Shown: in pieces, positions 4,729-13,200 of the stretch
Layout: the number at the start of each line of letters is the position of its first letter
How positions within the stretch are numbered: the first letter of the stretch is position 1
NCBI GenBank assembly: GCA_025351795.1
Contig: JANXVG010000059.1
Coordinates: 1 to 60,527, forward strand
Direction: 5' to 3'
DNA length: 60,527 bases
Source: Salinibacterium sp.
GTDB taxonomy: Bacteria > Actinomycetota > Actinomycetes > Actinomycetales > Microbacteriaceae
The notes under the pieces: generated by a model
The model's input: the letters and a program-made list of their open reading frames with translations, nothing else
What the model was told of the DNA's origin: nothing
Databases searched by the model: none
Position numbers and translations under genes: made by a program

Positions 4729-5565
4729 CTATTCGGGAATAGTCACAAAATCGATCAGCTGCTCAACGCTGCCGAGGAGCGCTGACTCAAGATCGGCAAA
4801 CGATTCCACGCGAGACAGGATGCGCTGCCACGCGTGCGCTATATCGGTCTGGTCGGCGTTCGGCCAGCCGAGCGCCTCGCAGACGCCGTGCTTCCACTCG
4901 ATTTCACGCGCTATCACGGGCCATTCCGCTAAGCCCAACCTCTGCGGTTTCACGGCTTGCCAGATATCCACGAACGGATGTCCGACGACGCGCACATGGG
5001 CACCGAACGGCCCGCGCGCTACCGCGTCGGCTATCCGACTCTCCTTGGAGCCGACTACCAGATGATCGACGAGTACCCCGACCCGTCGGTCACGCGCGGG
5101 ATGAAAGTCGCGCAACACCCCCTCGAGCAGATCAACCCCCTGAAGGTATTCCACCACGACCCCCTCGACGCGCAGGTCGGCGCCCCAGATTCGCTCAACG
5201 AGCTCAGCGTCGTGACGGCCTTCCACGAGGATGCGACTCGGCGAGGCAACACACGCGCGCGCATTGGCCACCGCGAATGACCCACTCGCTGTGCGCGCCG
5301 TTCCGCGCCGGGAGACCGGCGCAGTGAGTCGGATCCGTTCGCCATCGAGCAGCAGGTCTGCGTCACGTGGGAAGGTTCGCTTCGTGCCGCGGCGGTCCTC
5401 GAGTTCGACGAACGCACGATCGATGCGCACGATGGCACCGACGAACCCCGATGCAGCATCCTCGAGCACAAGGTCGATCTCCGCCGGGACTGGCGTCGGC
5501 GGTGTGATCGACTGGCGATGCCGAAACCCGGCGAGCACGTCGTTGCCGTATCGATCGTCGCTCAC
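4729..5565 (-). CDS. DUF3097 domain-containing protein
   Basis: A protein of 278 residues matching the actinobacterial DUF3097 family. It starts SDDRYGNDVLAG, has a strand-rich N-terminal part and a C-terminal half with ILVEGRHDAELVERIWG, GVVVEYLQG and RVGVLVDHLVVGSKE. This last part looks like a Toprim fold (glutamate in VEGRHD, later DHL). No function is established for the family; a nucleic-acid role is a guess from the Toprim-like pattern. I chose the GTG start over a TTG one codon upstream. It ends about 270 bases from the deacetylase gene and converges on it. Confidence 0.85.
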   Translation of the reverse strand: MSDDRYGNDVLAGFRHRQSITPPTPVPAEIDLVLEDAASGFVGAIVRIDRAFVELEDRRGTKRTFPRDADLLLDGERIRLTAPVSRRGTARTASGSFAVANARACVASPSRILVEGRHDAELVERIWGADLRVEGVVVEYLQGVDLLEGVLRDFHPARDRRVGVLVDHLVVGSKESRIADAVARGPFGAHVRVVGHPFVDIWQAVKPQRLGLAEWPVIAREIEWKHGVCEALGWPNADQTDIAHAWQRILSRVESFADLESALLGSVEQLIDFVTIPE

Positions 5566-9738: not shown

Positions 9739-11022
9739 CTACTCCGAGCTATCGCCTTGAAATGTCGTGTGGTGGTGGCGTTCGCGGCGTCTCCAGTCAT
9801 CAGGAATCGCGGCTTCGAGAGCATCATCGACGGTGATAACGCCAAGGATGTGCCCGCCATCGTCGAGGATGGGGAGACTCAGCAGGTTGTAGTCGGCCAT
9901 CAGATTTGTGACATCGATGATGTCGTCGCGGGGGTCAGCGTGGACGGGTTCGAGATCGGAGATGTCCCTCAAGAGCGCGTCAGGGTCGGCTTGGATGGCG
10001 CGAACCACACTGAGCGTGCCGATAAGTCGATGTTCGGCATCCACGCTGTAGATCGTGGTGAGGGCTTCGGGCTGTTGTGACGTTGCCTCACGCACAATGT
10101 GGAGGGCATCCCGAACCGTTGATTGCTCATCGACGGCAAGATATTCAACCCCCATGAGACCGCCAGCGCTGGCGTCTTGATATCGCATGAGCCGTAACAC
10201 GTCGACGCGTTTCATCTCTGGGAGTGCATCGACGACCGGTCGTCTTCGATCCTGTGGGAGGTCAAGGATCGCGTCGACAGCGTCATCGGTGCGCATTCTG
10301 CTGAGGACAGCGGCGATCTCGTCGGTATTGCGCGTCTTCAGAACCTGGGTTTGATGGTTGTCTTCGAGTTCTTCGAATACGTCAGCTTCGAGATCGGGGT
10401 GATTGTGCAGGTGATCGAGAAGGTCATCGCGCTCACGGGTTGACGCACTTTCTATGAGGTCAGCGATTTGCGCCGCGTGTAAGCCGCGCAGTCGACCGAA
10501 CCCTGATCGCACACGCACCGAGGCTTCGTGGCCGATGAGCGCCTCAAATGACTTCCAGTCTCGAACGGTGTGCTGTTCGTCGTGCACCCTGGGAAACCAT
10601 CTGCGTTTATGGATGTCTAACCCTGTCGCGACCCACCCATCTGCGTGGTGGGCAATAACCACATCGTATGCTCGCACCAGGGCTGCCCGGTCGACATCGA
10701 TAAGCCGGTGCCCCAGCACTGCCTCTTTGAGCAATACCTCGCCATCGCGGCGTTCGAAGGGGCGCACGTCGACCCGGGCTGTGCTGAGGCTGATGCGGTC
10801 GGCGTCAATAGTTGTGACGTCCGATATGGGCACGAACACGGTGTTCGGGCCTACCCGCATCACGAGACCGGTGAGCTGTGGGTAGGTATTGGGATGAAGG
10901 CGAACAATCACGTCGCCGAGCGACCCGATCGTTTTGCCTTTCACATCAACCACGGCATCGCGAAGCATCGCCGAGAGGTAGAGCGGAGGCATATTGGGGT
11001 CGGTTGAGGTGGTATCGCTCAT
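9739..11022 (-). CDS. PRC-barrel / MgtE N-terminal / CBS protein without membrane domain
   Basis: A soluble protein of 427 residues. Domain order: a PRC-barrel-like region (about 12-80, with GKTIGSLGDVIVRLHP), a second similar stretch (about 95-150), the superhelical MgtE intracellular N domain (about 180-285, with LRGLHAAQIADLIESA and MRTDDAVDAILDLPQDRR), then a CBS pair (about 290-410, VEYLAVDEQSTVRDAL and LLSLPILDDGGHILGVIT). In true MgtE these parts sense Mg2+ and gate the channel, but here no transmembrane domain follows. It lies 64 bases behind the NRAMP gene in the same transcript, with GAAAGGT before its ATG. I infer a Mg2+-sensing regulator of that transporter. Confidence 0.88.
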   Translation of the reverse strand: MSDTTSTDPNMPPLYLSAMLRDAVVDVKGKTIGSLGDVIVRLHPNTYPQLTGLVMRVGPNTVFVPISDVTTIDADRISLSTARVDVRPFERRDGEVLLKEAVLGHRLIDVDRAALVRAYDVVIAHHADGWVATGLDIHKRRWFPRVHDEQHTVRDWKSFEALIGHEASVRVRSGFGRLRGLHAAQIADLIESASTRERDDLLDHLHNHPDLEADVFEELEDNHQTQVLKTRNTDEIAAVLSRMRTDDAVDAILDLPQDRRRPVVDALPEMKRVDVLRLMRYQDASAGGLMGVEYLAVDEQSTVRDALHIVREATSQQPEALTTIYSVDAEHRLIGTLSVVRAIQADPDALLRDISDLEPVHADPRDDIIDVTNLMADYNLLSLPILDDGGHILGVITVDDALEAAIPDDWRRRERHHHTTFQGDSSE

Positions 11023-11086: not shown

Positions 11087-12733
11087 TCAGTGGGCGGTTG
11101 CGAGTTGCGCGACCCGCACGATTACCATGATCATCGCCGATAAGAGGTAGACGCGCAGTACCGTAAGCCCCAGTCGTCTCCCGGTGGAGAGCTTGGGGGC
11201 GCTCAACAGTGCGATCGGCGGCATTCGCCATGTGGGTCGTTCACTTCGATCGACTGAATCTTCGGTCGAAATGGCCGGTCGGCGCCATCGATACAGCCCG
11301 AAGACCACGCCCGAGATAAGCGCAATTGCTGCGCCGCCGATGAGAATACCGACGATCGCGGCGGAGTTAAGCGACGGGAACAGCACGCTCGCGGTCAGCA
11401 CGATCGAGAGGATCACAAGGACGGCGACGACTGCCGAGGTGAAGATGTTCAACCAGCGCCCGTTGACCCACGGTCCGAGTACCGCTTTATCGTTGCAGAG
11501 CAGGAGCAGGAATACCGTGGCTGAAGGAAGAAGCACACCGGCGAGTACTTGAACTCCGACGGTGATGAGCCCCAGTGGACTTCCGGGAATGATGACGACG
11601 ACAGCGGAGATAATGAGAATTCCGGCAAATACTGAGTAGAACCCTTTGGCCTCCGAAACTTTCCTGTGCAGCGAATGCTTCAGACCGAGAACGTCGCCGA
11701 GCGCATACGACGTCGAGAGGCCAACCGCGGCTGCTCCGATGATAGAAGCATCAATCAGGGCAAGAGCAAAGAGTATTCCGGCAATCTTGCCGACATACGT
11801 GCCGAGCCCGGTTGCGATGCCGCCAGCATCGGTGAAGTTTCCGAATCCCGGGGTACCCGAAAACGCGGCCGCGGTGAGAGACATGAGTGCCGCTGCACCC
11901 ACGACAACAATCAGGATGCCGATCCAGAGATCTACCTTCTCGTAGTTCATGAAGCGCGGTGTGATTCGCTTGTCAATGACATAGGACTGTTGGAAGAACA
12001 GTTGCCACGGCGCGACCGTCGTTCCCACGATGCCGATAATCAGCAGTATTACGGTCGACAGTTCCGCGCCGGGTGGAAATGCTGGGATCAGAAGTCCGCG
12101 AGCGATTTGCCCGAGCGGCGGGTGAACAATTATGAACAAGGGCACCAATATCAATGATCCTGCGATCAGAATCATGCACAGGCGCTCGAATCGACGGAAC
12201 GACCCGGTGCTCACCGCACCGATGACGAATAGCGCCGAGACGATAACGCCCGGAACCTGCGGAATTCCCAGATAGCTCAAACCGAGGCTGATACCAATGA
12301 ACTCGGTCACGATCGTGAGAGCGTTTAAGATGAACAAGTCGATGACGCTGAAGGCACCCCAGAACTTTCCGAAGCGTTCGAGAATGAGGCGAGCGTGCCC
12401 GACCCCGGCGACAGCGCCGAGACGCAATACCATTTCCTGGTTGACGTAGAGCACTGGCACGAGCAACAACAGAGTCCATAACAGCGATGTGCCGTAGTTC
12501 TGACCAGCCTCAGTGTAGGTTCCGAACGCCCCGGCATCGTTGTCACCCACCATGACAATCAGCCCAGGGCCAACGATCGCTATCAGGGTTCGAAACTTCG
12601 CAGAAAGCTTTCTACGCGGCGCGTCATCACCGAGTTGGATAGTGCCAAAGGCGCCCTCAATGTTGCCCACGTGAGCCGCGTCCAGCGAAGCGGACTTTCT
12701 GGTCTCGGACGGGATATTGGTTGGTGAGGTCAT
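11087..12733 (-). CDS. NRAMP-family divalent metal transporter, probably Mg2+ type
   Basis: A membrane protein of 548 residues with about eleven hydrophobic segments and an N-terminal cytosolic tail of 45 residues. It aligns to NRAMP around TM1 (GPGLIVMVGDNDAGAF) and TM6 (TTVAPWQLFFQQ). The metal site is changed: the usual DPGN is DAGA (66-69) and the usual MPH is APW (241-243), so the sulfur ligand for transition metals is lost. Loss of that Met is known from NRAMP-related Mg2+ transporters. ATG at 12733 follows GGGGAGGA. An M-box riboswitch and leader peptide lie upstream, and an MgtE-like sensor gene downstream. All this argues for Mg2+ rather than Mn2+/Fe2+; that step is inference. Confidence 0.9.
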   Translation of the reverse strand: MTSPTNIPSETRKSASLDAAHVGNIEGAFGTIQLGDDAPRRKLSAKFRTLIAIVGPGLIVMVGDNDAGAFGTYTEAGQNYGTSLLWTLLLLVPVLYVNQEMVLRLGAVAGVGHARLILERFGKFWGAFSVIDLFILNALTIVTEFIGISLGLSYLGIPQVPGVIVSALFVIGAVSTGSFRRFERLCMILIAGSLILVPLFIIVHPPLGQIARGLLIPAFPPGAELSTVILLIIGIVGTTVAPWQLFFQQSYVIDKRITPRFMNYEKVDLWIGILIVVVGAAALMSLTAAAFSGTPGFGNFTDAGGIATGLGTYVGKIAGILFALALIDASIIGAAAVGLSTSYALGDVLGLKHSLHRKVSEAKGFYSVFAGILIISAVVVIIPGSPLGLITVGVQVLAGVLLPSATVFLLLLCNDKAVLGPWVNGRWLNIFTSAVVAVLVILSIVLTASVLFPSLNSAAIVGILIGGAAIALISGVVFGLYRWRRPAISTEDSVDRSERPTWRMPPIALLSAPKLSTGRRLGLTVLRVYLLSAMIMVIVRVAQLATAH

Positions 12734-12745
12734 GAGATGGCTTCC

Positions 12746-12763
12746 TCCCCTCAAGCGCGGGGA
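12746..12763 (-). promoter_or_regulatory. Hairpin overlapping the transporter ribosome site
   Basis: A short stem (TCCCC pairing with GGGGA, 8-base loop) sits just upstream of the transporter ATG and includes the first half of its GGGGAGGA ribosome site. It could limit initiation unless opened by upstream translation. Short stem, so tentative. Confidence 0.35.
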
Positions 12764-12876
12764 TAACGATGGGTAGGGAACATAAACGACCGTCATCGAA
12801 GAACAGTCGTGGAGTGGTTGCGCCATCAGCACGCCGTACCGCGCGACCCTACCTCCGCCAAGTGAACTGAGGGTGA

Positions 12877-12927
12877 CTAGGGCGCGACGCGAGGCGCGCG
12901 AGGCGCGGGTATATGGCCGTCGCTCAT
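12877..12927 (-). CDS. Proline-rich 16-residue leader peptide of the NRAMP operon
   Basis: An open frame of 16 codons lies between the M-box riboswitch and the transporter gene. It reads MSDGHIPAPRAPRVAP and ends in TAG, with an exact GGGAGG ribosome site six bases upstream of its ATG. Four of sixteen codons are proline, three of them within six codons. In enterobacteria the proline-rich MgtL leader of mgtA slows ribosomes when Mg2+ or charged proline tRNA is low and so changes Rho access; the same logic is proposed here by analogy. The ribosome site lies partly in a hairpin (12930-12949). Too short for database family assignment; conservation must be shown. Confidence 0.6.
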   Translation of the reverse strand: MSDGHIPAPRAPRVAP

Positions 12928-12929
12928 CG

Positions 12930-12949
12930 ACTACCTCCCGCAGGTTAGT
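12930..12949 (-). promoter_or_regulatory. Hairpin sequestering the leader-peptide ribosome site
   Basis: A 7-bp stem with one bulged A (ACTAACCT pairing with AGGTAGT, loop GCGGG) hides half of the GGGAGG site of the leader peptide. It could link riboswitch folding to leader translation. Seen by eye; no folding energy was calculated. Confidence 0.5.
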
Positions 12950-12982: not shown

Positions 12983-12993
12983 CGCTGCCTCTC

Positions 12994-13153
12994 CTCGTAA
13001 GACCTTTGGCACTTCGCGGCGTCAACCCGACGATATATAGTCGGGAGCCAATCGGGGTAACCCCTTGTGCCGGGGGAACCTGTCCTGACCCGGGGCGTCT
13101 CTCGACGTTGGGGGTCGCTGGCATATTTCCGCGAAGGAGCCTCAGCTAACGAG
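12994..13153 (-). promoter_or_regulatory. M-box (ykoK) Mg2+ riboswitch
   Basis: The leader RNA of the NRAMP operon carries the conserved blocks of the M-box aptamer in the right order: GTTAGCTGAGGCTCCT near the 5' end, CCAGCGACCC, then GAGAGACGCC, GGTCAGGACAGG, and GTGCCAAAGGTCTTACG at the 3' end. The closing stem P1 is formed by CTCGT (5') and ACGAG (3'). Size is about 160 bases, usual for the class. M-box RNAs compact when several Mg2+ ions bind and then switch off Mg2+ uptake genes. No terminator with a T-run follows, so control may act through Rho or translation of the leader peptide. Recognition is by memory of the consensus, not by a covariance search. Confidence 0.85.
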
Positions 13154-13170
13154 CGACACCTTGCAAACTA

Positions 13171-13200
13171 AATATAGGCATCCCGTCAATAAAATGCCAA
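13171..13200 (-). promoter_or_regulatory. Sigma-70-type promoter for the riboswitch operon
   Basis: On the minus strand TTGGCA (-35, 13195-13200) and TATATT (-10, 13171-13176) are separated by 18 bases. Transcription would start about 10 bases before the P1 stem of the riboswitch. The match and its position make this the likely operon promoter. Confidence 0.65.

Follow-up and report, generated by a model that had tools for sequence, protein, structure and literature searches.

In the sections of D'Halluin 2026 (PMC12810186) considered here, the M-box leader of M. tuberculosis is described as subject to Rho-dependent termination with the main site 5' of uORF2. This uORF is strongly expressed according to reporters in M. 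smegmatis, and an SD1/anti-SD/SD2 exchange in the leader is backed by mutants. The uORF2/Rv1805A peptide is regarded by the authors as mycobacteria-specific and a PE/PPE role was suggested for it. In E. coli, ribosomes drop off at low Mg2+ at the EPDP motif of MgtL (PMC11282234, excerpt), and impeded translation of MgtQ, an 8-codon ORF before Salmonella mgtB, raises a Mg2+ transporter (PMC8092293, excerpt). Most M-boxes control an intrinsic terminator, and M-box-controlled NrmT is found mostly in Clostridia and Deltaproteobacteria, according to the part of Shin 2014 (PMC4072509) consulted, in which neither "leader peptide" nor "actinobacteri-" occurs. On the basis of these parts of both sources, an M-box with NRAMP (PMC4072509) and an M-box with a uORF and Rho in mycobacteria (PMC12810186) are already known.

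The locus studied here lies in a window (the whole analyzed stretch, 60,527 nucleotides from Salinibacterium sp.). Its short uORF is located behind an M-box and has a strong second ribosome site like M. tuberculosis uORF2, with which it also shares a conserved N-terminus and a proline at position 7 (MSDGHIP in the window), as compared via the presumed-mycobacterial f22 loci. Unlike uORF2, the window uORF and many of its relatives occur outside mycobacteria, before NRAMP and other genes, and the codon-level core described below is not mentioned for uORF2 in the considered sections of PMC12810186. With MgtL of enterobacterial mgtA it has in common its place in the leader of a Mg2+ transporter operon and the presence of acidic and proline residues near its start. 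However, an M-box is present here and none is described in the excerpt on the MgtL system (PMC11282234), and the window uORF family has one shared proline and no proline run. MgtQ is likewise a very short ORF with early Asp/Glu, but it is intergenic and acts on the ribosome site of the next gene (PMC8092293, excerpt), whereas 143 nt separate the end of the window uORF from NRAMP. As in the NrmT loci outlined in the consulted part of PMC4072509, the M-box precedes an NRAMP-related gene, which often has an MgtE-N-like partner.

The M-box of the window is the sole RF00380 match in its genome (Table 1). None of five listed genomes of the same genus gave an M-box in the RF00380 search, so that its distribution within the genus is patchy. 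The spacing between aptamer and uORF is 56 nt. The NRAMP gene has its own ribosome site and a frame different from that of the uORF, and in the protein encoded 3' of it no Pfam match to the MgtE membrane domain was obtained. A CCCC/GGGG inverted repeat precedes the NRAMP ribosome site (12762-12741, minus strand), and similar CCCGC/GCGGG repeats ending at the ribosome site were seen by eye in L011 and L015.

Table 1. Features of the M-box leader and the following genes in the window.
Feature	Position	Strand	Basis
Promoter-like site TTGGCA-18-TATATT, directly 5' of aptamer	13171..13200	-	Consensus match only; 10/12 consensus positions, 0.1 expected (shuffles)
M-box magnesium riboswitch aptamer (RF00380)	12984..13160	-	119.1 bits (gathering cutoff 44), full length 1-169, E 4.7e-26
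uORF ribosome site GGGAGG, ending 6 nt 5' of uORF ATG	12934..12939	-	Read in sequence; equivalent site in relatives
16-codon uORF MSDGHIPAPRAPRVAP, M-box uORF family member (ATG 12927-12925, TAG 12879-12877)	12877..12927	-	Sequence and related uORFs
uORF core codons CAT ATA CCC (His5, Ile6, Pro7)	12907..12915	-	Two A/U-ending codons, then shared proline
Weak terminator-like hairpin between uORF and NRAMP	12786..12810	-	Consensus match only: 9 pairs, 4 G-C
NRAMP ribosome site region	12741..12750	-	Read in sequence
NRAMP-family transporter gene (ATG 12733)	11087..12733	-	PF01566, E 1.7e-79
MgtE N-domain + CBS protein, 3' of NRAMP	9739..11022	-	PF03448 E 4.5e-18, PF00571 E 1.9e-9

The first-pass annotation had placed a proline-rich 16-codon frame between M-box and NRAMP gene, with its ribosome site in a hairpin and no visible terminator, and had likened it to MgtL. 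The frame could be read directly and its ribosome site is near-perfect. Four prolines are indeed present in the translation (codons 7, 9, 12, and 16), but this is not proline-rich beyond chance, with at least four proline codons in 12% of dinucleotide shuffles of codons 2-16 (p 0.12). In the minimum-energy fold of 110 nt the ribosome site is paired with uORF codons 4-5 and 7-8, but the leader fold is no better than that of shuffles (z -0.52 for 110 nt, z -1.48 for 281 nt). Pairing between the start region and the uORF tail was not above chance in the window (z +0.43). No terminator was found between riboswitch and uORF, whereas a weak terminator-like hairpin precedes NRAMP; inspection of L011 and L013 by eye showed no counterpart of it in these relatives.

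Most relatives with an M-box have also retained the frame, its ribosome site and start and an early proline, with variation in the wobble base of the proline codon, a check that had been proposed with the annotation; the proline run is not kept. The N-termini read MSDGHIP in the window, MSDGHSP in Sinomonas, MSDGHEP in L013, MSPSHSP in Subtercola, MSESHSP in L012 and MNDSHRP in L015. Over the first seven codons, 18/21 bases are equal between the window and Sinomonas, and likewise 18/21 between the window and L013. Subtercola (L011) belongs, like the window, to the Microbacteriaceae, and Subtercola vilae combines M-box and uORF with an NRAMP-like gene. In the six closest uORFs, which are from Micrococcales (L001, L011, L012, L013, L015 and Sinomonas L110; downstream genes by eye except in the window), only Pro7 is common to all (6/6), with Pro9 in 2/6, Pro12 in 2/6 and Pro16 in 1/6, and Pro7 is the only proline of the Sinomonas uORF. 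An MgtL-like proline run is not supported by this comparison. The likeness to MgtL extends to early acidic residues and one early proline, but not to several conserved proline codons, and the proposed proline logic is partly supported. It is the existence of relatives, and not the proline content, that puts the window uORF far beyond chance.

For a wider survey, RF00380 was searched in samples drawn at the level of family, order, class and phylum and additionally in two other families, and M-box matches were obtained in 16/299, 10/297, 26/394, 22/296, 25/100, and 44/156 genomes of the six overlapping sets. In total 107 loci were read, with L016 and L107, which are below the Rfam cutoff, left out of the counts; L113-L122 are outside the counts and a partial match (G1242:C307) gave no locus. 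By hand reading, a related uORF was identified in 75 of the 87 M-box loci of the class, window included, and in 5/18 loci of other classes, while 12/87 and 13/18 loci, respectively, were read as having no related uORF. Among the class loci without it are L017, L018, and L019. At L106 the uORF stretch appears absent. L055 and L088 keep a uORF-like sequence with the usual start codon lost and are possible decayed or non-AUG uORFs. In L021-L026 of family f4, which have no uORF, the main ORF begins roughly where the uORF lies in other leaders; the main gene of L021 is an ABC-type permease (Pfam). These loci suggest that M-box leaders can do without the uORF. L020, also of family f4, has one.

In the f76 loci L058, L060, and L062, which belong to another class, a terminator-like hairpin with a T-run was seen by eye between aptamer and uORF, and uORFs beginning MDSEPGS, MESDPGH, and MESDPGS are present despite this hairpin. 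This fits a uORF that is more than the riboswitch's own expression platform. Divergent M-box pairs about 226-244 bases apart were observed at L131/L140 (G1295:C12) and L132/L142 (G1330:C50), and each of these M-boxes has its own uORF, of different types within the pairs.

Because the uORF reading, starts and anchors had been set by eye or by hand, a blind rule was applied and further loci were included. The rule required a GGAGG-type site plus a start codon and, no later than codon 17, the succession of a Gly or AGY codon, one with an A/U ending, and AGT. It matched 41 of the 87 class loci compared with 0.08 expected from shuffles, and matched neither control stretches upstream and downstream (0/84 and 0/85) nor loci outside the class (0/18). 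The codon pair of the window uORF, CAT ATA in place of the commonest CAT AGT, makes it fail this strict rule. Of 59 further loci, which all belong to family f22 and in part come from genomes used before, 20 were matched (0.04 expected); after removal of L124, L137, L175, L178, and L181, which were seen in pattern searches, 17/54 remained.

Searching 296 class genomes with the pattern GGAGGTG-gap-TGAGY...SAYAGTCC resulted in 11 matches, all of them (11/11) behind M-boxes and beginning 72-94 nt 3' of one, and the reversed control pattern gave no match in the same genomes. A shorter pattern without the ribosome site gave 12 matches in 156 genomes, 12/12 behind M-boxes. The two patterns have 9 sites in common and 14 distinct sites in total, all directly behind M-boxes, and no match away from M-boxes was found in the two genome samples. 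Both patterns are strict and missed many uORFs, that of the window included. With a third pattern, run on a named genome collection, matches were obtained in Frankia sp. CIT1, Speluncibacter jeojiensis, Sinomonas sp. ASV486, Subtercola vilae and Nocardia donostiensis, and an M-box lies just 5' in 4/5, the exception being Nocardia donostiensis. In the latter (L112, about 5436-5467, minus strand) the family uORF MSSGHSPHPHRFRFSAT with a ribosome site was observed, and no M-box was found in the surrounding 1001 bases at E up to 10. A similar M-box-free copy is reported for mycobacteria in the considered sections of PMC12810186 (Rv0115A).

Residue preferences were compared between 80 uORFs and 59 main ORFs, with starts and core anchors of the uORFs set by hand; for L105 at least, the anchor is displaced by one or two codons. 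A proline occurs in codons 2-8 of 64/80 uORFs compared with 26/59 main ORFs and an acidic residue in 62/80 compared with 29/59, whereas hydrophobic residues (Ala counted) fill 0.35 of these 7 codons in uORFs and 2.61 of 7 in main ORFs. Two close acidic residues were found in 22/80 uORFs; acidic residues are missing from codons 2-8 of the four f36 (Frankia-type) uORFs. The 46 rule-picked uORFs of the 59 further loci carry a proline in codons 2-8 in 44/46 cases, an acidic residue in 42/46 and two close acidic residues in 22/46, and include MDDPPSRY and MDEPPSRY types. The window uORF carries Asp3 and Pro7. The uORFs are 15 to 106 codons long (72 distinct uORFs) and 11 codons in Sinomonas; their tails are mostly unconserved, except that several f35 uORFs end in GTR.

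At two hand-anchored core codons of the 72 distinct uORFs, codon usage deviates strongly from background. The Ser codon is AGT in 43/44 cases (background 0.12), a count that the hand-set anchors may inflate; codon p-values treat related sequences as independent. At the same codons His is CAT in 21/26 (background 0.30), Asp is GAT in 12/16 (0.27) and Arg is CGA in 11/12 (0.10). The proline codon after the core pair is roughly at background (CCG 19, CCC 7, others 2; n=28). The two core codons end in A/U in 54/69 and 64/69 distinct uORFs (background 0.177). A/U endings are also raised three codons before the core (44/69) and less so at c+3 (31/69), with some later positions mildly raised, and are at background level at c-2 and c+2. 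Outside the core, too, AGT is enriched (70 AGT vs. 46 AGC), with counts of 10 vs. 23 after it. An unanchored AGY count over codons 4-10 of the 46 further uORFs is in agreement, with 58 AGT and 6 AGC. The first core codon is codon 5 in most uORFs and one of codons 6-14 in others. The conserved features are proline and acidic residues early in the frame and a pair of codons ending in A/U, not a four-proline run.

RNA structure was analyzed over the same stretch. In family f35 a GGGCC-loop-GGCCC hairpin over the core is better than shuffles in 13/29 loci (p<0.05), and in some members the stem is kept while residues change. Elsewhere a core hairpin was above shuffles in f98 (2/2), f76 (1/3), f4 (1/2) and f22 (1/21), and in none of the loci of f1 (0/15), f36 (0/4), f38 (0/3) and f6 (0/1); in the window it is not (z -0.73, p 0.21). 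A common core hairpin, clear in f35 but not in f1, f22, f36 and f38, was rejected as a general explanation. A shared hairpin fails to explain the third-base bias. This bias is read as a sign of selection that acts on residues and, in addition, on either the codons or a locally unpaired stretch. Besides the core hairpin, f35 loci such as L089, L100, and L101 may form a helix that joins the sequence 5' of the ribosome site to the end of the uORF.

Pairing of the start region with the 3' half of the uORF beats shuffles in 19/80 loci, with 4 expected, and pairing with the upstream linker was at chance level (5/80 above chance). A predicted switch helix between the linker and the 3' strand of P1 was above chance in 9/80 loci; the window (z +1.42) is not among them, and such tests have little power where linkers are short and GC-rich. 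Consensus folds of A1 (18 rows) and A2 (17 rows) contained 3 and 5 pairs, of which 0 had both sides changed; a column scan of A1 and A2 gave candidate helices with some double changes, which were treated as weak. C-over-G skew gave no sign of a Rho site in leader or gap in 50 loci with a rule-found main ORF and a gap >40 nt, which did not differ from main ORFs.

The genes behind the uORF were assigned by Pfam for the window and 15 other uORF loci, using as input the first long ORF or a chosen short one of each locus. Seven gene families follow the uORF: NRAMP (window, L060, L081), MgtE (L010, L074, L097), MgtC (L007), CorA (L041), P-type ATPase (L002, L028), ABC-type permease (L006, L020, L049) and PPE (L038); the short ORFs of L029 and L030 gave no Pfam match. 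Since seven gene families lie behind the same uORF, the uORF belongs to the M-box leader and not to one protein, and a role of Rv1805A specific to PE20/PPE31 is argued against by this distribution. Family f22, with the PPE gene behind L038, presumably represents mycobacteria and relatives, and f36 presumably Frankia; the uORF is common to f36 and L108.

A strong ribosome site, a start codon and an early core (acidic or Ser residues, a proline and a pair of A/U-ending codons) occur as a conserved unit behind M-boxes, in front of unrelated genes. The window ORF is best explained as a cis-acting leader ORF of an actinobacterial M-box uORF family that is gated by the M-box and hard to translate, a reading that is given about an even chance of being correct. 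The M-box would gate access to the uORF ribosome site, which for the window is suggested by homology and is not confirmed by the pairing analyses above; for the M. tuberculosis leader, M-box gating is supported by reporter mutants in the considered sections of PMC12810186. At low Mg2+, ribosomes would start on the uORF and slow or drop off over the hard-to-translate core, and their position on the leader would form a second, translation-based input on whether RNA polymerase reaches the transporter gene. For the window this would mean that low Mg2+ turns on NRAMP together with its MgtE-N partner. Against this stands that in M. tuberculosis the main termination site is 5' of the uORF, a position that the authors take to suggest that termination is independent of uORF translation (PMC12810186).

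The main rival of a hard-to-translate leader ORF is a passive gate, in which the uORF just offers the M-box a ribosome site to hide, translation keeps Rho off and the peptide is irrelevant; the conserved codons would then keep the start region weakly structured. This account is possible and is held tentatively. It is close to the published mycobacterial model and is in line with the mostly unconserved tails, with the f4 loci in which the main gene takes about the place of the uORF, and with A/U endings at the core codons and three codons earlier. However, the distance from core to start is not fixed, A/U endings at c-2 and c+2 do not exceed background, and an open start region has no need of the bias toward proline and acidic and away from hydrophobic residues. 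An RNA element, kept for folding of a core hairpin or for pairing of the ribosome site with the uORF 3' half, would account for the f35 hairpin with its stem kept in some members despite residue changes and for the excess of start region pairings. It is nevertheless improbable, as the hairpin is not seen in f1, f36, f38, and f6 and only once among 21 f22 loci, the A1 and A2 folds are without any pair changed on both sides, and the window is above chance for neither structure.

A functional small protein that acts on the transporter, a role put forward for Rv1805A with PE20/PPE31, is the hypothesis of the discoverers in the considered sections of PMC12810186 and agrees with the conserved N-terminal residues. 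It is considered very improbable, since a length of 11 to 106 codons with mostly unconserved tails and the same N-terminus before unrelated transporters without PE/PPE speak against it. That the frame is a chance ORF in a GC-rich leader is scarcely conceivable: the proline count of the window is ordinary for its composition and the strict rule failed there, but the first seven codons match those of Sinomonas and L013 closely at the same place behind M-boxes, and the blind-rule counts in the class and the further loci as well as both pattern searches disfavor chance.

Beyond the M-box-gated, hard-to-translate leader ORF, it was considered that riboswitch and leader peptide, both Mg2+ sensors, are stacked in one leader across actinobacteria with the core as translation-speed sensor. 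Besides an acidic residue and a proline, this core would have as its sensing part two A/U-ending codons, for instance CAU-AGU or CGA-AGU, for which frequent decoding by wobble is proposed. This is thought rather unlikely; the core would then be a convergent counterpart of MgtL that lies behind an M-box and is blind to the downstream gene.

Among the open-access papers listed, no description of an M-box uORF outside mycobacteria was recognized, and within the open-access literature the class-wide uORF family and its codon signature appear to be new. The mycobacterial uORF would thereby become a general part of actinobacterial M-box leaders, and a rule would emerge by which two codons of a tiny ORF keep third bases that oppose the strong codon bias of GC-rich genomes. 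If it is true that the core senses Mg2+ via translation, these leaders would constitute a two-layer Mg2+ switch with both sensors on one RNA.
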